Source: Corynebacterium tuberculostearicum
GTDB taxonomy: Bacteria; Actinomycetota; Actinomycetes; Mycobacteriales; Mycobacteriaceae
Assembly: GCF_013408445.1 (NCBI RefSeq)
Contig: NZ_JACBZL010000001.1
Coordinates: 2,170,001 to 2,234,000 of the forward strand
Direction: 5' to 3'
Length of the DNA: 64,000 bases
The notes under the pieces were generated by a model. That model saw only the letters and a program-made list of their open reading frames with translations. It was not told the origin of the DNA and made no database searches. The first letter of the stretch is position 1, and the number at the start of each line of letters is the position of its first letter. Both the position numbers and the translations under genes were made by a program. This document shows positions 35,503 to 46,935 of the stretch, piece after piece.

Positions 35503-38500
35503 ATGCTTGGGATCGGGGATACCCGCGTCATTGAGCCGTTGACCATGCCACTACGGGATGCTGCGCCGCCGCTGCCCACCGGCAGCATCGAGGCCGAGGA
35601 GGTCCCAGAGGCGGTGCGTCCACAACCGGTGCCGCTGGTGCGGCTGCTGCTGCCGGTGGTGATGATTGCGGCGATGCTCGGCATGGTCGCCCTCATGGTG
35701 TTAGGCGCTGGGGATTCCCGGCAGATTAGCCCGATGGCCTTGATGTTTCCATTGATGATGCTGGCGAGTATGGCCATGATGTTTGGGCCCAATAATAGTG
35801 GGCAGGATCCGGATGAAACCCGGCGTACCTACCTGCGCCACATCAAAGCCTTGCGGGAAAAGGCGCTGCGCAATGCGTCGGCGCAGCGTGCACATGAAAG
35901 CTATCGCCACCCGGCACCGGTGGAACTTAGCACTCTAGTCGGCTCGCGCCGCATGTGGGAGCGTGGCCCGGATGACTCGGACGCCCTCGAGGTACGCGTG
36001 GGAACTGGACCAACGACGTTGTGCACCCCCATCAACGTGCCGGATTCCGGCGCCACTGAAGACCTGGACCCGGTGTGTGCGGTAAGCATGCGCCAGACCA
36101 TTAAGGCGGTGGGCACCGTTCCCGATATGCCGGTGGTTATCCAACTGCAGGCCTTTCGCTTCTTGTCCGTGTCCGGAATGGCGTCGACTCGGAGCGAAGA
36201 GCCCGCAGATCCCTCCCGCGATATGGTGCGCGCAATGGTGCTGCAGATGGCCTTGGCGCATGGCCCGGAAACCTGCGGGATCGAGGCCATCGGTGGCCAG
36301 TGGGAGTGGCTGAAGTGGCTGCCCCATGCGCGCACACCGGAAAAGGCGCGCTTTCGCATCCTCATAGTCGATGGCGTGCTGACCACGGGCACCGAGGACT
36401 TCTTCCATGATGATTCCTACACCACCATCATTGAGGTCGGTGGGGCGCCGTCTTCGGCGCTGGGGGTACGCGCCGAGCACGAAGGACTAAGCCTCGTGGC
36501 AGGGGAGCAGCTGCAGGTGGTCACCGCGGCAGGGGTGGAAGACCTCGGTTCTCCCGACGGAATGAGTACGGCCGGCGCGACCTTGCTTGCGCGCAGTATG
36601 GCCTCCTACCGCCGCCCCGATAGCACTTCTGGCAGGCGCGGCAGTGACCTTATGGGCCTTCTGGGCTATCGCGATGTGGAAGAGCTAGCGGCCAGTGGCA
36701 TGTGGCATGGCCGAGAGGGTTCGGCGCGTCTCATGGTGCCCATCGGCATCGATACGGTGGGCCAGCCCGTCACGGTAGATCTCAAGGAATCTGCCCACGG
36801 CGGTATGGGCCCGCACGGCCTGTGCATCGGTGCGACTGGCAGCGGAAAGTCGGAGCTGCTGCGCACGCTTGTCACCGCGCTGGCGGCTACCCATAGTCCG
36901 GACGAGCTCAATCTTGTGTTGGTGGATTTCAAGGGCGGCGCGACATTTTTAGGATGCGACCGCCTGCCGCATACTTCCGCGGTGATTACCAACCTGGAGG
37001 AGGAATCTACGCTGGTAGAACGCATGTATGATGCCATCTCCGGCGAGATGAACCGCCGCCAGGAGCTGCTGCGCACCGCCGGAAACTTTGCCAATGTCGG
37101 CGAGTACAACTCCTCTGCCACCGCGGTGCGTGAGCACGGGCCGCTGCCGGCCTTGGTCATTGTGGTCGATGAGTTCTCGGAGCTTTTGGGCCAGCACCCG
37201 GATTTCGCGGAACTCTTTGTCGCCGTCGGCCGCTTGGGGCGCAGTCTCCACGTGCACCTGCTTTTGGCCTCCCAAAGGCTCGAAGAAGGCCGCTTGCGGG
37301 GGCTAGATTCCCACTTGTCCTACCGAATCGGCCTGAAAACCTTCTCCTCAGCGGAATCCCGCCAGGTATTGGGCGTGACCGATGCCTACCACCTGCCCGG
37401 CCAGCCTGGCGCGGGTTACCTCAAATCCGATGCCGAGGCCTTGACCCGCTTCCAAGCTTCTTATGTGTCTGGGCCTCTGCCGCGCCGGACGCTTGCCGAC
37501 GCCTCCGTGGACCACCCCGCAGCGTCCCGCGGCCGCGTGCAGCTCTTTCATGGCTGGTCCCAGGAAGAGGACAATACTAGCGCTGCGGTGGTTCTCGATG
37601 ACTCCACCACTGTGCTTACCGAGGTCGTGCGCGCCGCGGCGGAAGAGGCCCACCTGCGCGATCAATCGGCGCACCGCATCTGGCTGCCGCCGCTACCGCC
37701 GGTCATTGAGCTATCCGCGTTGCCGGGGCTTTCCGGTGCAGATGACGCGGGTGCAGTCTCGCCCGCAGTGGACCAAGGGTCGCTGCGCGCGCCCATCGGC
37801 ATTATCGATAGGCCGTACTACCAACGCCAGGACGAGCTGATTATTGATTTCACCCAGCACGGCGGACACATGGCCCTGTGTGGCGGTCCACAGTCCGGTA
37901 AATCGAGTGCGCTGCGCACGATCGTCTCTGCGCTAGCTCTACGGCATGATCCGCAGGCGGCACGCTTCTACGTCATCGATCTTGGCGGCGGTCAGCTAGC
38001 ATCCCTGGAGCGACTGCCCCACGTGGCCGGAGTTGCCGGGCGCGAGGAGGGCGAAAAGGTACGGCGCATCGTCGACGAAGTAGCTGGGTTTATCCGCCGT
38101 CCAGAACGGTGCGCAACCTTCCTTGTCATTGATGGCTGGCACCACATCGGTACCTCGAATGCGGAGTTTGAAGACATAGCGGAGAAGGTTACCGAGATCG
38201 TCGCCGATGGCGCCTCCGCCCACGTGCACGTCATCATTGCCACTTCGCGGTGGACCACGATGCGCCCCGCTATCCGCGATCTCATTGCCAACCGCCTCGA
38301 GCTGCGCCTAGGCGAGGCCTTGGATTCGCTCATCGACCGCAAACTACAGCAAAAGCTTCCCTGCGCGCCGGGCCGCGGGCTCACCTTGACGGGTGAGAAT
38401 ATGCTCTTAGCTCGCACCTCTAACCAGGACATCGCTCACATCTGCCGCGTTCATGCGGAGGCTCAGCCGGTTCCTCAGCTCAAGATGCTGCCCGCCGTGC

Positions 38501-39222
38501 TTACCCCGGCCGCACTCGCAGCTCAAGGGGATGTTCCCGCCGGTGAGATCGCCTGGGGCATCGGCGGGCGCGACCTCGATACGCTGACCTGGAATCCGTC
38601 GCGCGAGCCGCACCTAGTGGCAATCGGGGCGCAGGGGTGTGGCAAGTCCACCTTCCTGGCGCAGGTCATGCGCGGTATTAGCGCTTTTGCGAGGGAAGAC
38701 GCCCGGCTCGTGGTCATCGACCAGCGCCGAGCCCACCTAGGAACCTTGGACCAGAACATGGTTGCTGCCTACGCCGCGACGCAGTCGAGTGCGCAAGAGA
38801 CCATTGTCGATACAGTCCGGACCCTGGAATCTCGCCTGCCTGGCCCGGACATTACCCCGGCGCAGCTCGCCGCACGAGATTGGTGGCAGGGCCCAGATAT
38901 TTACCTAGTCATCGATGATGCGGACCTGCTGAGCGATATTGCCCTCTCGCCACTGCTGGAATTGCTCCCACATGCCCGCGACATTGGCTTGCACCTTGTT
39001 ATCGCTCGCAAATCCGGCGGCATCGGCCGTGCCCTCTTTGGCCAATTCTTTTCCGCGGTGCGCGATCTGCAGCCGGCGCTGCTGCTTTTCGACGCCGACC
39101 GCGACGAAGGAACCATCTTCGGCCTCAAGCCCTGCCACCAACCACCCGGGCGCGGTCAGTGGAGCATCCGCGGTGAAAACCTCGGCGTCGCCCAAGCGGT
39201 GTACCTAGAAGGAGAAAAGTAA
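35503..39222 (+). CDS. eccC: Type VII secretion ATPase EccC (FtsK/SpoIIIE family, fused)
   Basis: 1239 residues. Two membrane helices near 45-95 are followed by three FtsK-like ATPase domains with Walker A motifs GATGSGKSE (about 443), GGPQSGKSS (about 793) and GAQGCGKST (about 1041). Matching Walker B strands are LVLVDFKGG, FYVIDLGGG and LVVIDQRRA. The EccCa and EccCb halves are fused, as in ESX-4. EccC recognises substrates and drives export. The next gene begins at the base after its stop codon. Copy 3 of the dispersed motif (one mismatch) is at 37490-37504. Confidence 0.96.
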   Translation: MLGIGDTRVIEPLTMPLRDAAPPLPTGSIEAEEVPEAVRPQPVPLVRLLLPVVMIAAMLGMVALMVLGAGDSRQISPMALMFPLMMLASMAMMFGPNNSGQDPDETRRTYLRHIKALREKALRNASAQRAHESYRHPAPVELSTLVGSRRMWERGPDDSDALEVRVGTGPTTLCTPINVPDSGATEDLDPVCAVSMRQTIKAVGTVPDMPVVIQLQAFRFLSVSGMASTRSEEPADPSRDMVRAMVLQMALAHGPETCGIEAIGGQWEWLKWLPHARTPEKARFRILIVDGVLTTGTEDFFHDDSYTTIIEVGGAPSSALGVRAEHEGLSLVAGEQLQVVTAAGVEDLGSPDGMSTAGATLLARSMASYRRPDSTSGRRGSDLMGLLGYRDVEELAASGMWHGREGSARLMVPIGIDTVGQPVTVDLKESAHGGMGPHGLCIGATGSGKSELLRTLVTALAATHSPDELNLVLVDFKGGATFLGCDRLPHTSAVITNLEEESTLVERMYDAISGEMNRRQELLRTAGNFANVGEYNSSATAVREHGPLPALVIVVDEFSELLGQHPDFAELFVAVGRLGRSLHVHLLLASQRLEEGRLRGLDSHLSYRIGLKTFSSAESRQVLGVTDAYHLPGQPGAGYLKSDAEALTRFQASYVSGPLPRRTLADASVDHPAASRGRVQLFHGWSQEEDNTSAAVVLDDSTTVLTEVVRAAAEEAHLRDQSAHRIWLPPLPPVIELSALPGLSGADDAGAVSPAVDQGSLRAPIGIIDRPYYQRQDELIIDFTQHGGHMALCGGPQSGKSSALRTIVSALALRHDPQAARFYVIDLGGGQLASLERLPHVAGVAGREEGEKVRRIVDEVAGFIRRPERCATFLVIDGWHHIGTSNAEFEDIAEKVTEIVADGASAHVHVIIATSRWTTMRPAIRDLIANRLELRLGEALDSLIDRKLQQKLPCAPGRGLTLTGENMLLARTSNQDIAHICRVHAEAQPVPQLKMLPAVLTPAALAAQGDVPAGEIAWGIGGRDLDTLTWNPSREPHLVAIGAQGCGKSTFLAQVMRGISAFAREDARLVVIDQRRAHLGTLDQNMVAAYAATQSSAQETIVDTVRTLESRLPGPDITPAQLAARDWWQGPDIYLVIDDADLLSDIALSPLLELLPHARDIGLHLVIARKSGGIGRALFGQFFSAVRDLQPALLLFDADRDEGTIFGLKPCHQPPGRGQWSIRGENLGVAQAVYLEGEK
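37490..37504 (-). repeat. Dispersed 15-base motif, copy 3 (one mismatch)
   Basis: 14 of 15 bases match, inside eccC; the differing base is at the end of the motif. Confidence 0.55.
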
Positions 39223-40347
39223 ATGACCACCAATCTCAGCGCGCATACGCCAACCGACACCCCTATCCCTACTGGTGGGGAGACCACCGCCGGCCCCATT
39301 ACCGTCACCATCCTGGATGCGGCCACAATCTTTGAAGGGCCCGAAACGGTCTATCGCTATGACCTGCCGGGAACCGGCATTGTGGAAGGCTGGGCCTTAG
39401 GCCAAGTCATGGATCAGATATCCAAGATGGCGGGACCGTCCTGGCCCGACGTGGAAGCCTGCGTGGTGGCAGACTCTTCCGGCACGGGAATTGCGCAGGA
39501 AGCCACCTCTATTATCTGCCGGCAATTGGAAGTCACCGGGGTGCACCTCATCGACCCAGAACCAACCATCTCCCCGCTAGCCGCCCCGGACCCACTCGAT
39601 CCGCCTCCTCACCCGGTTCCTGAAGCCACTGATTCGGCACCTCCCACTACGGTGATGGAGGCACCTGCTTATGACGAACCGGTAACGCCACGCTGGACCG
39701 ACCGCCTGCGCGGTTGGCTCGGAGCCATCGATATCTTTCATGTGGCAATTGCCGTGGTCATTATCGCCGTGGCTGGGGCTTCTTGGTGGGCCATCGGTGC
39801 CCAAGCTTCAGGTGAAGGCGACGCCGCTCCGGATGCATCGCACCCGCAACCCCGCGCTGCCGAGCCAAGCGGCGATGGTGCGGCGGAGTTCGCGCCGGCC
39901 TCGCCGCAACCGGGAATGCCAGGCGCGTCAGATTCCGGCAGCGAGGAATTGAACCCAGGCGAAAAGCGCTTAGACGTGGAAGGAATGTCAGTAGTAGTCC
40001 CCAGTGGGTTCCACACCAAGGTAGAAGATGGTCTGGTCACCGCCACCGGGAAAGACCCGAACCTACGCATCCTGCTGGCGGCGGATGAGATGTTTAACGT
40101 GCCGGCGGATGCCCTGTTCAAAGAAATTCACGCGCAGGTCGACGAAGATCCGACGCTTCGCGATGCCACCGATGAGGCAGGGCGCCTGACCTATACCGAA
40201 GACCCCGGGGACGGCTCCTTGGTGGAATGGACCACTTGGGAAGACCGTGGGCACCAGATGTCCGTGGGATGCCATACCCGGCATAACTCCAACGCCGTTC
40301 AAAAGGCGGCCTGCCGCATGGCCACGGAAAGCCTGGTCAAAAAATAG
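39223..40347 (+). CDS. Type VII secretion-associated protein, Rv3446c-like
   Basis: 374 residues: N-terminal domain of about 120 residues with VTILDAATIFEGPETVYRYD, a Pro-rich linker, one membrane helix (near 168-190, VAIAVVIIAVAGASWWAIG), an acidic linker and a C-terminal extracytoplasmic domain (RLDVEGMSVVVPSGFH...). Position between eccC and the WXG100 genes, topology and size match the Rv3446c family of ESX-4 loci. Its function is not established. Start directly follows the eccC stop. Confidence 0.85.
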   Translation: MTTNLSAHTPTDTPIPTGGETTAGPITVTILDAATIFEGPETVYRYDLPGTGIVEGWALGQVMDQISKMAGPSWPDVEACVVADSSGTGIAQEATSIICRQLEVTGVHLIDPEPTISPLAAPDPLDPPPHPVPEATDSAPPTTVMEAPAYDEPVTPRWTDRLRGWLGAIDIFHVAIAVVIIAVAGASWWAIGAQASGEGDAAPDASHPQPRAAEPSGDGAAEFAPASPQPGMPGASDSGSEELNPGEKRLDVEGMSVVVPSGFHTKVEDGLVTATGKDPNLRILLAADEMFNVPADALFKEIHAQVDEDPTLRDATDEAGRLTYTEDPGDGSLVEWTTWEDRGHQMSVGCHTRHNSNAVQKAACRMATESLVKK

Positions 40348-40369: not shown

Positions 40370-40450
40370 GGGAACCGTTTGGCGGAAAGTTCAGTCCAAT
40401 AAAAGTGAGAAAGCACAGATGCGAAGCACAGCTGCTTTTTCGGGGGAAAT
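40370..40450 (+). promoter_or_regulatory. Promoter region of the WXG100 genes, shared with 44507-44576
   Basis: GGAACC (40371-40376), 17 bases, then GTCC within CAGTCCAAT (40392-40400) suggests an extracytoplasmic-function sigma-type promoter (-35 GGAAC). TTTGGCG and GTGAGAA stand at fixed positions within and after it. CTTTTTCGGGGGAAAT follows at 40435-40450. The same blocks with identical spacing precede the three-gene cassette at 44583. A separate ribosome site, AAGGAGG, lies at about 40472, so the CGGGGGA string here is not the ribosome site. Confidence 0.6.
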
Positions 40451-40489: not shown

Positions 40490-40804
40490 ATGTCTCAGAC
40501 TTTCAAGACACAAGCCGATGTCATGGTTGCCACCGCTGGCAAAGTCGATAACACCAACGATGAAGTCCAAGGCGAGCTCACCCGCCTGCAGGGCGTCGTC
40601 GACTCCGTCCGCGGCAGCTGGGTTGGCCAGGCCCAGGTCTCCTTCGATGACCTGATGCAGCGCTACAACACCTCTGCACAGCAGCTGCGCGAGGCCTTGG
40701 CCTCAATCTCTGACAATATCCGCAGCAACGCCCACAACTTCGACAACGTGGAAGCCGAAAACACCCAGGCCTTCTCCAACGTGGGCGGCGGCCTCGCCCT
40801 CTAA
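40490..40804 (+). CDS. WXG100 family protein, EsxB/CFP-10-like
   Basis: 104 residues, helical hairpin with the turn motif W-V-G near residue 44 (GSWVGQAQ). The second helix ends ISDNIRSNAHNFDNVEAEN, which lines up with the end of CFP-10. Where CFP-10 and most substrates have the secretion signal YxxxD/E, this protein has FDNVE, Phe replacing Tyr. It would form a heterodimer with the next gene product and be exported by the ESX-4-like machine. A good AAGGAGG site precedes the ATG. Confidence 0.93.
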   Translation: MSQTFKTQADVMVATAGKVDNTNDEVQGELTRLQGVVDSVRGSWVGQAQVSFDDLMQRYNTSAQQLREALASISDNIRSNAHNFDNVEAENTQAFSNVGGGLAL

Positions 40805-40873: not shown

Positions 40874-41161
40874 ATGTCCGAGATCAAGTACGAATTCGGT
40901 GCCATTTCTTCCGCCGCAGCCGATATCAACGCCACCTCTGGCCGCATCAACAGCACTCTGGCAGACCTGAAGGCGCGCCTGCAGCCGATGGTAAGCACCT
41001 GGGAGGGCGAGTCCGCCGTGGCTTATAACCAAGCGCAGGCCAAGTGGGACAAGGCGTCCCAGGAACTCAACACCGTGCTGGCCACCATCTCCAAGACCGT
41101 TTCGCAAGGCAACGATGCAATGAGCGACGTCAACCGTCGCGCCGCTGCAAGCTGGGGTTAA
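40874..41161 (+). CDS. WXG100 family protein, EsxA/ESAT-6-like
   Basis: 95 residues, helix-turn-helix with W-E-G (STWEGESAVAY) near residue 43. The C-terminus ends AAASWG with no YxxxD/E motif, as expected for the partner that does not carry the export signal. It is encoded 69 bases after the EsxB-like gene and followed by a terminator. Confidence 0.93.
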   Translation: MSEIKYEFGAISSAAADINATSGRINSTLADLKARLQPMVSTWEGESAVAYNQAQAKWDKASQELNTVLATISKTVSQGNDAMSDVNRRAAASWG

Positions 41162-42751: not shown

Positions 42752-43078
42752 ATGGACGTCAGCAAATACACCTATCAAGTCTTCTGGTCTGAAGAGGACA
42801 ATGAGTTCGTGGCGACGGTTGCCGAGTTTCCTTCACTATCGTGGCTGGATTCTGATCGTAGCTGTGCAGAGCAGGAACTTCTGAAGTTGGTCGCGGAAGT
42901 AGTAGAAGATATGCAGGTTTCAGGGGAAGTCATCCCACAACCGCTGGGGGCTCGTTCATATTCGGGAAAATTCAACGTTCGAACCTCTCCGTCGCTGCAT
43001 CGCAAACTAGTAATGGAAGCTAGGACGGAAGGAATTTCACTCAACGCATTGATAAACCAGAAGCTTGCCTCCGCCTAG
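42752..43078 (+). CDS. HicB-family antitoxin-like protein with RHH domain
   Basis: 108 residues: partial RNase H-like HicB domain (YTYQVFWSEEDNEFVATVAE, FPSLSWLDSDRSCAEQELLK) and a C-terminal ribbon-helix-helix (GKFNVRTSPSLHRKLVMEA, ISLNALINQKLASA). HicB proteins neutralise the HicA mRNA-cleaving toxin and repress their own operon. No hicA is found beside it; only the 38-residue ORF precedes it. It may act as an orphan regulator. Codon use is less GC-rich than in the flanking rpsI and glmM, which suggests acquisition. Confidence 0.8.
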   Translation: MDVSKYTYQVFWSEEDNEFVATVAEFPSLSWLDSDRSCAEQELLKLVAEVVEDMQVSGEVIPQPLGARSYSGKFNVRTSPSLHRKLVMEARTEGISLNALINQKLASA

Positions 43079-43126: not shown

Positions 43127-44470
43127 ATGACTCGACTTTTTGGAACCGATGGCGTTCGCGGCCTCGCGAACAAGAAGCTGACCCCAATTCTGGCCTTGCA
43201 ACTAGGCCAGGCCGCTGCAGAGGTATTTACCGCCAAGCGCGAATCCTATGAGCGCCAGCCGCTGGCCATTATTGGCCGCGACCCGCGTGTTTCTGGCGAG
43301 ATGCTGGATGCAGCGATTGCGTCCGGGCTGGCTTCCCGCGGCGTGGACGTGGTGCGCGTGGGCGTGCTGCCGACGCCGGCGATTGCCTACCTGACGGATG
43401 ACTATGGTGCGGATTTGGGCGTGATGATTTCCGCCTCCCACAACCCGATGCCAGACAACGGCATCAAGTTCTTCTCCGCAGGTGGTAAGAAGCTACCAGA
43501 CGAGGTAGAAGATCAGATTCAGGCCACCATGGAAAACCTCACCGAGGATGGCCCGACCGGCACCAAGTTGGGCCGCATCATCTCGGAGGCTCCGGACGGA
43601 CGCGAGCGCTACCTCAACCACTTGAAGGAAGTGGTCTCCACCGACCTGGGCGGCATCAAGGTGGTCGTAGACACCGCCAATGGTGCGGCTTCCAAGGTTG
43701 CTCCGATCGCCTACGAGGCGGCTGGCGCAGAGGTTATTGCTATCCACAACAAGCCGAATGCCTTCAATATCAATGAGGACTGCGGTTCGACGCACATTGA
43801 AAAGGCACAGGCGGCCGTCGTCGAGCATGGCGCCGATCTGGGCTTGGCGCACGATGGCGACGCCGACCGTTGCCTGGCTGTGGACGCCGAGGGCAATGTT
43901 GTTGACGGTGACCAGATTATGGCCCTGCTGGCCGTAGGCATGAAGGAGGATAATGACCTGCGCTACAACACTCTGGTAGCAACCGTCATGTCTAACCTGG
44001 GCCTGAAGCTAGCCATGCAGGAGCAAGGCATCGAAGTGCGCCATACCGCAGTAGGCGACCGCTACGTACTGGAAGAGCTCAACCGCGGCGATTTCTCCTT
44101 GGGCGGCGAGCAGTCTGGTCACGTCGTGTTGCCAGATGATTGCACGACTGGCGACGGCACGCTTACTGGCCTGTCCATCATGGCGCGCATGGCCAAGTCC
44201 GGGAAGTCCCTAAAGGAATTGGCATCGGTGATGACCGTGCTGCCGCAGGTCCTCATTAACGTGCCGGTTTCTGATAAGGGTGTCATCATGGACGCCCCCG
44301 AAGTACAAGAAGCCATTGCCCAGGCCGAGGAAGAACTCGGCGAAACCGGCCGCGTCCTGTTGCGTCCCTCCGGCACCGAGGAGGTTTTCCGCGTCATGGT
44401 GGAGGCTGCCGATAAGGAGCAGGCACGCAAGGTTGCCGGGAGGCTTTCCGCCATCGTTTCCTCGGTCTAG
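43127..44470 (+). CDS. glmM: Phosphoglucosamine mutase
   Basis: 447 residues. Interconverts glucosamine-6-P and glucosamine-1-P for peptidoglycan precursor synthesis. The phosphoserine loop [12 protein letters not shown] is near 100, the metal loop HDGDADR near 242, and the C-terminal phosphate-binding [12 protein letters not shown] is present. The partner glmS lies 6.4 kb downstream. Its place after rplM-rpsI matches mycobacteria. Confidence 0.97.
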
Positions 44471-44506: not shown

Positions 44507-44576
44507 GGGAACCATTTGGCGCAATCCCCAGTCCAATGAAGGTGAGAACTTTTACCGCATATGGATTTGGGGGAAT
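44507..44576 (+). promoter_or_regulatory. Promoter region of the three-gene cassette, like that of the WXG100 genes
   Basis: GGGAACC (44507-44513), TTTGGCG (44515-44521), CAGTCCAAT (44529-44537) and GTGAGAA (44542-44548) stand at exactly the spacing found at 40370-40411. TTTGGGGGAATACAC then leads into the start codon, like CGGGGGAAATACAC at 40441-40454. The bases between the blocks differ, so the blocks look selected. Confidence 0.65.
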
Positions 44577-44582
44577 ACACCA

Positions 44583-44897
44583 GTGTCTGAGGTTTTTCTT
44601 CGCCCCTTGGAGGCGATGTCCGCACTACGGCAGGTCGTAGCCGATAACGACGAACAACGCGATGCTCACCGGGCCGAGGTGCCGGATTTTCCGGTGGCCG
44701 CGGCTGGACGCAACTTTGGCGGCCACGGTGAGCGCATTCGTGATGTCTTGGCGCGCATCCATGAGCGCGGCGGGCAGAGGTTGGATAATTTATCCGCCAC
44801 CGCCCACGCCGCCCATGAACAGGTGCGCGCCATTGCTGATTTTGATGAGTCCTTCGGCAGCTCCTTTGCACGCGGCGGGGAGGCGGACAGCAAGTGA
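44583..44897 (+). CDS. Small helical protein, possible T7SS (EspC/WXG-like) substrate
   Basis: 104 residues from GTG (MSEVFLRPLEAMSALRQ), no signal peptide and no cysteine. Two predicted helical stretches (about 10-30 and 48-88) are joined by a Gly-rich turn, GRNFGGHGERI, in the place of a WxG turn, and are followed by FDESFGSSF. Length, hairpin layout and lack of signal peptide are those of WXG100/EspC-type substrates, but the Trp is missing and I claim no family match. The GTGA overlap with the next gene, and the promoter shared with the WXG100 genes, tie it to type VII secretion. By position it corresponds to Rv3440c in mycobacteria. Confidence 0.6.
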   Translation: MSEVFLRPLEAMSALRQVVADNDEQRDAHRAEVPDFPVAAAGRNFGGHGERIRDVLARIHERGGQRLDNLSATAHAAHEQVRAIADFDESFGSSFARGGEADSK

Positions 44898-46675
44898 GTA
44901 CGCTGACAAAATCCCTGTTGGGGGACTATTCCAACGCGATTTCCCAATTCCAGTTCGCATGCTTGGGAAGCTACTCGGGCCCCAGCATGCCGATGAACCT
45001 ACTGGGAGAGCTAGTCGGTGCGGTGGATGGCATCGCGCCCGAAAACCTGGTGAAAAACACCGTTGCGGCCGTGGGCGGCAACCGCCCGCAGGGAGGCGGT
45101 GCTGGACTAGCGGGCTATTTGCAGCAAGATGATTCCGAGGTTGCTCAAGGCGCCATGCGCGAGCACCTGTGCGGCGTGCAGGAAGACTTCGACATTGACC
45201 GCCAGGATGCCGCCCATCTCACCAGTTCGGCGGAGCAGTGCTCGGGCGCTATTGCCGACGTCGTCGATGTCTCCGACACCGCCCTTACCGAGCTCATCTC
45301 TGCGGTCATCCCACTGCTGAATATCTTGTCCATGGTGGCTACCAAGCACCCCCTGGCCAGGTTTATCATCCCGATTCTTTCCACCATTGGCGGGCGCGTT
45401 ATCGAAGAGACGAATCACAATATCGCTAGCACCTGCCGTGACCGCGATGATGCGATTGAGTCCTGCTATAACGAGTTTGAATCGCGCTGCGAATGCGTCT
45501 GTGAGCGCCCAATGCCGGAAGAATGCCCGACGCCAGCTAAACCTACAGATGACGCCTGCCCCGCACCGGTAGAACAATGCCCGGAGACTCCTACTCCCAC
45601 TAAGCCGATGCCGAAGGAAGAGTGCCCGCCCCCGCCCTCGCAGCCCACCGAGCCGGCCCAGGTGGAGTGCCCACCAGAGCCCAAGCCCATGCCGGAGCCT
45701 GACTCAAAGCGAGAATCGAGCCAGACGACTTCCGCGCCGCCACAGCCGACGCCTCCTTCGCCACCACCCGTCCCGCCAAAGGAATGCCCCGAGCCCGAGC
45801 CGGAGCAATCCTCCAAGACGGAAGTGCACACGGAGACCACTGCAGAACACGGTCTCGGCTGCCACTGCAATGAGTGCACCGAGCAACCATTTACCGAGCG
45901 ACCAGCGCAGTCCCAGCGCGAAGTAGAGATAACCAAGCCGGCACAGGCAGAGATCATTCCGCCGCAGGAGCCGCCAGAACAGCCACAGCAAGTAGAAGAA
46001 CCGTGCCCGGAACCTGAACCTCAGCCTGAGCCGAAACCTAAACCAGACATGGATACGGAACCCGCTTCTGGATCGGGCGCAGGCGAGGAAACGCTCTGCC
46101 CGGAAAATACCGCGGAAAGTACCGAAGAATGTGTGGAAACGACCCAAACCAGCTCAGAAGGCTGTGAAATTGAATCCTCCTGCAGCGGCAGCCTCGGCCT
46201 GGTAGGGGCCGGAATCGCTTTAGTAGGCGTGGGCCTCATTGTGGAAGGCGCCGCGCAGTGCCTGGAGCACATGTCCGAGGCGGATTGCCCGGTGCAAGAG
46301 CCCGAACCGGACCCCGTCCCTGAGCCTGAGCCAGAGCCAGAACCTGATCCCTGCCCGGACCCTAAGCCTGAGCCCGAACCGGAGCCGGAGCCAGCTGGTG
46401 ATGATGGCGTAATGGCGCCGCCTCCTGAGCTGTCTCAGGTAGAGGAGCCAACGCCGCCACCAGAAAAGGTGGCACACCTCCAGGCGGCCGGTCCAGCAGA
46501 GGCACCGTCACCAGCCCCTGCTCCGGCTCCTGAACCAGCACCGGCACCGGAGCCGGCCCCGGCACCGCAGCCGGCTCCAGAAGAAGCGCCAGCACCGGCA
46601 CCAGCGCCGCAGCAGGAGGCGGCACCGGCGCCAGAAGAACCAACCATTAAGGCACGAAAGGCAGGTCAGTGGTAA
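44894..46675 (+). CDS. 593-residue Pro/Glu/Cys-rich protein, putative T7SS partner
   Basis: An N-terminal helical domain of about 200 residues, without signal peptide, contains a hydrophobic stretch (ELISAVIPLLNILSMVA, LARFIIPILSTIGGRVI). Next comes a long Pro/Glu/Gln/Cys-rich region (about 205-425) with many Cys-Pro pairs and a CHCNEC motif. A second hydrophobic segment (near 432-455, LGLVGAGIALVGVGLIVEG) follows, then Pro-Glu repeats (about 466-500), Pro-Ala repeats (about 537-585) and the end KARKAGQW. It overlaps both neighbours (GTGA at the start, TAATG at the end). By position it corresponds to the Ala/Pro-rich Rv3439c of mycobacteria. An envelope-spanning or exported structural protein is plausible; no enzyme domain is seen. 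Confidence 0.75.
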   Translation: MSTLTKSLLGDYSNAISQFQFACLGSYSGPSMPMNLLGELVGAVDGIAPENLVKNTVAAVGGNRPQGGGAGLAGYLQQDDSEVAQGAMREHLCGVQEDFDIDRQDAAHLTSSAEQCSGAIADVVDVSDTALTELISAVIPLLNILSMVATKHPLARFIIPILSTIGGRVIEETNHNIASTCRDRDDAIESCYNEFESRCECVCERPMPEECPTPAKPTDDACPAPVEQCPETPTPTKPMPKEECPPPPSQPTEPAQVECPPEPKPMPEPDSKRESSQTTSAPPQPTPPSPPPVPPKECPEPEPEQSSKTEVHTETTAEHGLGCHCNECTEQPFTERPAQSQREVEITKPAQAEIIPPQEPPEQPQQVEEPCPEPEPQPEPKPKPDMDTEPASGSGAGEETLCPENTAESTEECVETTQTSSEGCEIESSCSGSLGLVGAGIALVGVGLIVEGAAQCLEHMSEADCPVQEPEPDPVPEPEPEPEPDPCPDPKPEPEPEPEPAGDDGVMAPPPELSQVEEPTPPPEKVAHLQAAGPAEAPSPAPAPAPEPAPAPEPAPAPQPAPEEAPAPAPAPQQEAAPAPEEPTIKARKAGQW

Positions 46676-46935
46676 TGAATAACGACTTCGCAGAATTTGC
46701 GCAGGGCTTTCGGGAAAGGACGGCTAAACGCCTGCTGGAATTTGAAAAAACGCTGGCGAAAGCGCAAGACGAGCTAGAAAAGTCTGCGGATAAAGCCATG
46801 CAAGAGGCGCGAAGGGAGAAGGGGCAGGTGGGGCGTCGGCAAGCGGCGGCGGTGCCAAGGCCACGATATGGCGCTGCCCCGGCGCGCTCAAGGAACGCGT
46901 CGGGGCAGGTGCAATCTGTGCTGCGGCGGGGCTAA
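46675..46935 (+). CDS. Small coiled-coil protein, third gene of the cassette
   Basis: 86 residues from an ATG overlapping the preceding stop (TAATG). The N-terminal half is a charged amphipathic helix (FRERTAKRLLEFEKTLAKAQ, DELEKSADKAMQEARREKG) and the C-terminal half is Arg/Ala/Pro-rich and probably unfolded. No signal peptide. Unknown family. It contains copy 4 of the dispersed 15-base motif. The convergent hydrolase-like gene ends five bases away. Confidence 0.65.
   Translation: MNNDFAEFAQGFRERTAKRLLEFEKTLAKAQDELEKSADKAMQEARREKGQVGRRQAAAVPRPRYGAAPARSRNASGQVQSVLRRG
46831..46845 (+). repeat. Dispersed 15-base motif, copy 4
   Basis: Exact motif inside the small coiled-coil gene; there it encodes G-R-R-Q-A, a reading frame different from copies 2, 3 and 6. 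Confidence 0.7.

Follow-up and report, generated by a model that had tools for sequence, protein, structure and literature searches.

A Three-Gene Cassette Beside ESX-4 in Corynebacterium Shares a Conserved Promoter With esxU-esxT and Probably Belongs to a SigM Regulon

The present analysis deals with a cassette of three genes (p1, p2 and p3) located next to the ESX-4 type VII secretion locus of Corynebacterium tuberculostearicum, in a 64,000-nucleotide stretch of DNA (the window, positions 2,170,001-2,234,000 of a 2.45-Mb single-contig genome). The cassette is preceded by the same predicted promoter as the WXG100 gene pair esxU-esxT of the ESX-4 locus, and the conserved unit, as deduced from the compared loci, is a two-part promoter of the extracytoplasmic function (ECF) type, GGGAACC-N16-AGTC[C/T]AA. 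We propose that positions 44507-46935 form a stand-alone operon of an ECF sigma factor regulon, very probably that of SigM, which would be turned on together with esxU-esxT via this promoter. The product of p1 would be an EspC-like partner and that of p2 a large associated protein, with ESX-4 as the most likely handler of both; they may be cargo of ESX-4 or a surface or membrane extension of it, and p3 may be a small accessory. The whole reading was given a probability of about 0.55. Its base, namely the shared promoter, the recurrence across genera, the link to the presence of SigM and the synteny with ESX-4, is at the level of sequence.

Promoter Conservation

A first-pass annotation of the window had reported four blocks with identical spacing in front of both operons (40370-40411 and 44507-44548). 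This was confirmed: the gapped 42-mer was found exactly twice in the window and in none of 100 shuffles. The view of these blocks as one shared architecture held for GGGAACC-N16-AGTC[C/T]AA, which persists across species, but not for TTTGGCG, which was rejected as a promoter element because it sits in the spacer, whose letters vary among the loci. The string GGGGGAA(A)TACAC is indeed present after both promoters, but GGGGA+TACAC was found in so few leaders of the 41 loci described below (5 of esxU, 3 of the cassette) that it was regarded as a local feature. Searching the whole genome, 5 matches to GGGAACC-N16-18-GTCCRA and 8 matches to the relaxed pattern GGAACC-N16-AGTCNAA were obtained, with 0 matches in either reversed control.

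For the comparison within the genus the window and 40 fetched Corynebacterium regions were used. Nearly all were syntenic; L102 was not, being the region of a wrong glmM paralogue, yet it was kept among the 41 scored loci. The 14 positions of GGGAACC and AGTCCAA were scored with a spacer of 15-17 within 400 nucleotides, using a threshold of at least 12/14. This comparison, which the first-pass annotation had named as a check, found the core kept before esxU in 34 of 40 loci and, at the cassette site behind glmM, in 35 of 41. The same score was reached by the controls glmM in 1/41, rplM in 0/40, esxT in 0/41, the hydrolase gene in 0/41 and eccC in 5/39 loci. Two similar promoters in one window, where the similarity extends beyond the core to TTTGGCG and GTGAGAA, could also stem from a local duplication that is recent and carries no regulatory meaning. 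This explanation is highly improbable and, as far as conservation can tell, already contradicted: across the genus both sites retain the core while the spacer varies, it recurs in other genera, and copies elsewhere in the genome precede other genes (8 relaxed matches versus 0 in the reversed control).

Outside Corynebacterium, 20 regions of other genera from the same family were picked beside matches to TIGR03931. Both promoter copies, before esxU and just after glmM, were present in 13 of them, and in 12 of these 13 an open reading frame (ORF) of 95-109 amino acids lies downstream of the promoter after glmM; the small ORF of L246 was miscalled. In the remaining 7 regions at least one of the two copies was missing from its place. 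A further set comprised 80 named Mycobacterium and Mycolicibacterium loci, which were the best 80 of 132 relatives picked by similarity to the p2 profile. A looser motif was found before the cassette in 79 of the 80, 77 of them with the 16-nucleotide spacer, and on the reverse strand in 0/80, the loose pattern having 136 plus-strand matches across the 925 kb of these loci; the sole locus without it was that of M. lepraemurium. In 74 of the 80 loci the motif is followed by a leaderless start of an ORF of 80-125 amino acids.

The first-pass annotation had further considered that the cassette might be present in many genomes that lack ESX-4. Such a distribution was not found: 62 of 66 p1-positive genomes have EccC above the cut-off, in a single-sequence p1 search that misses distant members. 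Among the four exceptions, the ESX-4 locus is divergent in G016 and G104, that of G109 has an eccC containing a stop, and the sequence covered for G105 was the cassette end of a contig. In the compared Corynebacterium loci the cassette adjoins ESX-4. Taken from the sequences, shared regulation of the cassette and the WXG100 genes appears well supported.

Assignment to SigM

The genome contains seven sigma genes, which, from their neighbours and general knowledge, we take to be sigA, sigB, sigE, sigH-rshA, sigM-trxB, one beside katA, and sigD. Around them no site scores above 11 of 14. Across 121 Corynebacterium genomes the strict motif GGGAACC-N16-AGTC[C/T]AA was found 324 times, and once in the reversed control. 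Of these copies 323 were located in the 96 SigM-positive genomes and 1 in the 25 SigM-negative genomes. At least one strict copy was carried by 72 of 96 SigM-positive compared to 1 of 25 SigM-negative genomes (Fisher 4.5e-11, phylogeny ignored). Genomes with a best E above 1e-24 were counted as SigM-negative, a limit chosen after paralogue matches at about 1e-20 to 1e-23 had been seen. Two single genomes fit this pattern: G097 (L108) has kept ESX-4 and the cassette, its promoters score just 8 and 9 and a SigM-grade match is missing, and in G057 a loose scan detected no motif and SigM was not found. Some SigM-positive genomes free of strict copies show variants such as CGTCTAA at the site. The variant motif TTGTCTAA is present at esxU and the cassette in G016 and G104 and at the cassette in G105, all three coded as SigM-negative; some of these negatives are therefore probably divergent.

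In Mycobacterium tuberculosis the esx-4 genes are reported to be under SigM (PMC8092274, PMC10117145), so that SigM control of ESX-4 in mycobacteria is already known. Corynebacterium and Mycobacterium share one promoter core upstream of esxU and the cassette, while the membership of the cassette and the corynebacterial list of recA, tagI, HNH and NlpC genes are not part of the accounts in the excerpts of these two papers. As the motif follows the presence of SigM, neither a strong motif nor SigM was found in G097 and G057, and SigM is reported to act over esx-4, transcription from the cassette promoter by SigM is considered likely. With the promoter conserved before both operons and its copies tracking SigM, the cassette is probably expressed with esxU-esxT by this sigma factor. 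The coregulation with the WXG100 genes claimed by the first-pass annotation thus found agreement at the sequence level, in the core shared by most Corynebacterium loci and other genera and in an abundance that tracks SigM. SigH and SigC were rejected as the sigma factor. Their promoters in Corynebacterium glutamicum also have a -35 element with GGAA, but the published -10 elements, t/cGTTgaa for SigH and CGACT for SigC, differ from the GTC[C/T]AA of the present promoter (PMC5483222, in excerpt). Searching the literature for the motif letters together with SigM gave no usable paper, only chance matches, among the matches listed. Nor did the literature listed give any account of the cassette as an operon of SigM or of the corynebacterial regulon described here, which is a weak claim, as the primary SigM papers were outside the search.

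We are aware of several points that weigh against this assignment. The SigM test ignores phylogeny, and its limit was fixed after inspection of the data. G113, with 10 copies and merely a partial SigM match (4.2e-23), was counted as SigM-positive; recoding it as negative gives 11 copies in 26 negative genomes. No strict copy was found in 24 of the 96 SigM-positive genomes. The sigM gene has no motif upstream in 30 loci, and autoregulation from this promoter was rejected. The esx locus of C. glutamicum, a single ESX-4-like locus of the same genus with the effector ExsI and the receptor ExiR, differs by its reported control by Fur and its role in iron uptake, and excerpts of that report leave the cassette unmentioned (PMC12607788). 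In M. tuberculosis, esxU and esxT behaved differently from the other esx-4 genes in heme, according to an excerpt of PMC10117145. Finally, there is no room for an anti-sigma gene between sigM and trxB in any of the 30 loci.

As an observation in its own right, sigM is located directly before trxB in 30/30 corynebacterial loci (L114, L332-L361), with gaps of 60-264 nucleotides.

Proteins Encoded by the Cassette

The three ORFs overlap by stop and start as annotated before, with GTGA between p1 and p2 and TAATG at p3, and a crude hydropathy scan agreed with the absence of signal peptides, none of the three proteins having a hydrophobic N-terminus. A p3-like ORF follows p2 in 39/39 loci with a called p1-p2 pair.

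The likeness of p1 to the EspC family PF10824 comes from mycobacteria: 3 of 4 tested mycobacterial p1 lie over the family cut-off, 11/12 carry the export motif YxxxD/E near the end, and the p1 gene precedes a large partner gene. In an alignment of 12 mycobacterial p1 (A2), A46-G47 and G54 are invariant and R48 is nearly so, and in an alignment of 35 corynebacterial p1 (A1) P34 is invariant, the centre AAGR-x-F is conserved, and H29, G42, F45, H60 and D88 are near-invariant. An AlphaFold model of the window p1 contains helices at 7-32, 38-44 and 48-102 at low confidence (mean predicted local distance difference test, pLDDT, 69.7; predicted template modelling score, pTM, 0.29). Using this model, Foldseek gave 0 matches in the PDB at E ≤ 10, and PDB profile searches with A1 and A2 yielded nothing of note. 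Overall, p1 may somewhat more probably than otherwise be EspC-like in nature. Export of the cassette through p1 would be plausible, and for the handling of p1 and p2 by ESX-4 we see about even odds.

The corynebacterial proteins are less favourable to this view and do not establish the first-pass suggestion that the cassette is probably a passenger or a component of the ESX-4-like machine. The earlier description of the first protein as WXG/EspC-like was not borne out for the window p1, which in the suggested profile hidden Markov model search matched no Pfam or NCBIfam family at E ≤ 1; two other corynebacterial p1 were equally without family match. Membership in the WXG100 family was rejected, with no PF06013 or TIGR03930 match at E ≤ 1 and WxG in 1/39 corynebacterial p1. 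The EspC profile itself is unspecific, the window WXG100 protein at 40490 also passing its cut-off. A1 and A2 matched moderately (probability 62, E 7.4e-5). YxxxD/E, the other mark of the mycobacterial p1, was found in 2/39 corynebacterial p1, or in 20/39 when F or W may replace Y; being scarce there, it suggests that p1, if exported, may rely on another signal. In the N-terminal part of p2, YxxxD/E is present in 19/39 corynebacterial compared to 12/12 mycobacterial sequences. The profile match between corynebacterial and mycobacterial p2 was negligible (probability 1.6), and the two groups are not alignable by profile.

For the window p2, family searches and profile comparison established no link to any type VII secretion family. 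Its hydropathy scan has an internal hydrophobic peak near residue 432 and a second, weaker peak near 130. The N-terminal region of corynebacterial p2 contains the motifs Y-x-GP and GLD and, in 25/39, a DRD-C element. Mycobacterial p2 have an invariant WxG (12/12), and the top two PDB matches of their profile are ESAT-6 chains, both weak (E 0.034 and 0.041). A PDB profile search with alignment A3 found coiled-coil chains (best E 5e-4), which was not taken as homology, and the AlphaFold prediction for the p2 N-terminal region (mean pLDDT 48.0) was not used. Position and promoter nevertheless suggest that the two p2 groups are orthologous.

Rv3440c, Rv3439c and Rv3438 are presumably the mycobacterial cassette, an equation made by gene order alone. 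By synteny Rv3439c has the position of p2, after glmM and a small gene; corynebacterial p2 could not be aligned by profile to the mycobacterial p2 compared. The first-pass annotation had called all three uncharacterised, which needs correction for Rv3439c, reported as Ppr2 and found with the PDZ domain of Rip1 in a yeast two-hybrid screen (PMC6963305, in excerpt). This leads to another explanation, namely a feedback regulator in which the p2 tail holds a PDZ intramembrane protease such as Rip1 and limits anti-sigma cleavage, assisted by p1 and p3. Rip1 is reported to act on the anti-SigM factor RsmA (PMC10449499, in excerpt), and the p2 tails are fixed, with [KRT]xGxW in 39/39 corynebacterial p2 (46655-46672 in the window) and mostly different LPQ/K-[V/A]G types (e.g., LPQVG) in 10/12 mycobacterial ones. 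Precisely this difference between the tails, however, and the p2 homology not found between the groups by profile comparison speak against it. Moreover, the gap between sigM and trxB, the place searched, is too small for an anti-sigma gene, so that the target pathway may be missing nearby. We regard a feedback regulator as unlikely and prefer p1 and p2 as proteins handled by ESX-4.

Further Promoter Copies

Beyond the esxU and cassette sites, the relaxed pattern detected six more copies in this genome (Table 1). From several genomes the copies before recA were obtained (L159, L183, L377, L382, L390; L387 with C replacing the first G). In total 160 distinct strict copies with DNA were classified, fetched from genomes rich in copies and with reference proteins drawn from the same set, so that the shares of the families are not population frequencies. 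Recurring families accounted for 140 of them: esxU 29, cassette 27, the 205-amino-acid family 18, CpaB/SAF 14, AbiEi-like 13, NlpC 9, HNH 9, Tag 7, recA 5, DUF3558 5, eccC 3 and comC 1. By inspection, the other 20 were assigned to the NlpC pair (6), a DUF3558 type (3), a short MI[F/L]LD ORF (4), places just outside ESX-4 loci (2), and unknown or chance (5). L002 (G000:1886920) was rejected as a regulon member; the A preceding GTCCAA is missing there, and like L011 and L032 it seems to be a chance match.

The same promoter before many non-secretion genes, e.g., recA, CpaB/SAF-mscL and tagI, is what a general envelope or redox stress operon under an ECF sigma factor would lead one to expect, as is sigM adjoining trxB in 30/30 loci. 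The cassette would then have no physical role in ESX-4, its co-regulation being shared stress control. We consider this improbable, because the Corynebacterium loci compared keep the cassette next to ESX-4, the two sites common to Corynebacterium and other genera are those of esxU and the cassette (the wider regulon was searched in Corynebacterium only), and mycobacterial p1 looks EspC-like. Concerning the regulon itself, RecA, TagI, a prepilin peptidase, CpaB-like and nuclease-like proteins that share one promoter with ESX-4 point to a DNA-exchange state; equally open is a general envelope and DNA-damage response. Rather tentatively, one SigM programme in Corynebacterium may join ESX-4 to DNA handling in a contact-triggered, competence-like DNA-exchange state. 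On the ESX-4 side it would comprise the WXG100 cargo, p1-p2-p3, the small helical/NlpC-P60 pair and, in some species, a pair of DUF3558 and a protein of about 560 amino acids; on the DNA side, recA-recX, the TagI glycosylase, the HNH-type protein, the CpaB-like pilus gene and, in one genome, ComC. EsxU-EsxT and p1-p2 would be the part retained between Corynebacterium and Mycobacterium. Contact reportedly activates SigM in M. smegmatis, going by the title of Clark et al. 2018. ESX-4 is reported to take part in M. smegmatis conjugation (PMC8092274, in excerpt), and the DNA-exchange reading accords with reports that ESX-4 and SigM have a role in DNA transfer in mycobacteria.

Three further gene arrangements were observed behind the promoter. 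About 75 kb downstream of esxU, at L007, it is followed by a leaderless 92-amino-acid ORF that looks helical; with the NlpC/P60 gene this is a candidate second pair of ESX-4 substrates. A short MI[F/L]LD ORF follows in L137, L169, L170 and L172, leaderless in at least 3 of the 4. In L165, L168, L171, L173, L177, L180, L181 and L392 the promoter precedes a lipoprotein gene (DUF3558 in L165) and a gene for a 550-610-amino-acid protein. These large proteins mostly share a GLDQLG-type stretch, an isopentenyl-diphosphate-isomerase-like gene comes next in some, and the two genes form another substrate-like pair.

Genes of the Window

Close protein relatives carry the names Corynebacterium kefirresidentii and C. 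marquesiae. After the WXG100 genes follow rplM, rpsI, a small inserted gene, glmM, the cassette, an alpha/beta-hydrolase gene on the minus strand and glmS; rplM, rpsI, glmM, glmS, eccB, mycP and eccD are labels that we assume from position and general knowledge. The small ORF at 42752-43078, which by eye resembles a HicB-type antitoxin, interrupts the rpsI-glmM run. Some Corynebacterium genomes contain a second high-scoring EccC apart from that of ESX-4, perhaps from another type VII locus (Table 1).

Table 1. Predicted features of the window, further promoter copies and second EccC sites.
Feature	Position	Strand	Basis
eccB	31497	-	presumed from position and general knowledge
mycP, eccD	after eccB	-	presumed from position and general knowledge
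eccC, ESX-4 ATPase	35503..39222	+	TIGR03924 and TIGR03925, both above cut-off
Rv3446c-like ESX-4 gene	39223..40347	+	TIGR03931, 200.9 bits versus cut-off 47.6
-35 element, esxU-esxT promoter	40370..40376	+	exact match to cassette copy; conserved
-10 element AGTCCAA, esxU-esxT promoter	40393..40399	+	exact match to cassette copy; conserved
WXG100 gene, esxU position	40490..40804	+	PF06013 and TIGR03930
WXG100 gene, esxT position	40874..41161	+	PF06013 and TIGR03930
glmM, syntenic, upstream of cassette	43127..44470	+	gene order; name presumed from general knowledge
-35 element GGGAACC, cassette promoter	44507..44513	+	exact match to esxU promoter; conservation scored over 41 loci
-10 element AGTCCAA, cassette promoter	44530..44536	+	16 nucleotides after -35; predicted
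p1, 104 amino acids, GTG start, helical, possibly EspC-like partner	44583..44897	+	ORF, alignment, model
p2, 593 amino acids, 25 Cys, Pro/Glu-rich, C-terminal tail KAGQW	44894..46675	+	ORF; GTGA overlap with p1
p3, 88 amino acids from GTG (or from ATG 46675 of TAATG), basic C-terminus	46669..46935	+	ORF
92-amino-acid ORF and NlpC/P60 protein, no signal peptide	L007:9460-10719 (G000:2284459-2285718)		by eye
205-amino-acid protein before RelA/SpoT-like gene	L006		by eye
CpaB/SAF-domain gene	L157		promoter copy upstream
GmrSD_C/HNH_4 protein	L158		promoter copy upstream
recA-recX	L159, promoter G000 764021-764050	-	by eye; GTCTAA form, 74 nucleotides before recA start
Protein with weak AbiEi_4 match below cut-off	L160		promoter copy upstream
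Second EccC sites	G116:C1:1588949, G025:C1:2102421, G034:C5:11780, G070:C27:140904		
Second EccC sites, continued	G024:C78:52819, G075:C7:5155, G032:C1:119046		

Biological Meaning

ESX-4 has been called the ancestral type VII system (PMC10117145, PMC12607788, both in excerpt), and its cargo and role are still debated. At the sequence level the coregulation proposed by the first-pass annotation is right, and wider than it had seen, extending to other genera and being probably driven by SigM. A promoter signature on esxU-esxT and one small operon in two genera gives a short list of candidate partners, headed by p1 and p2. Of the leads obtained, the most interesting is the regulon that includes recA. 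Should this wider regulon of Corynebacterium prove real, it would tie the oldest type VII system to recA and other DNA-processing genes, and the part that ESX-4 plays in DNA transfer could be tested directly in harmless laboratory species.

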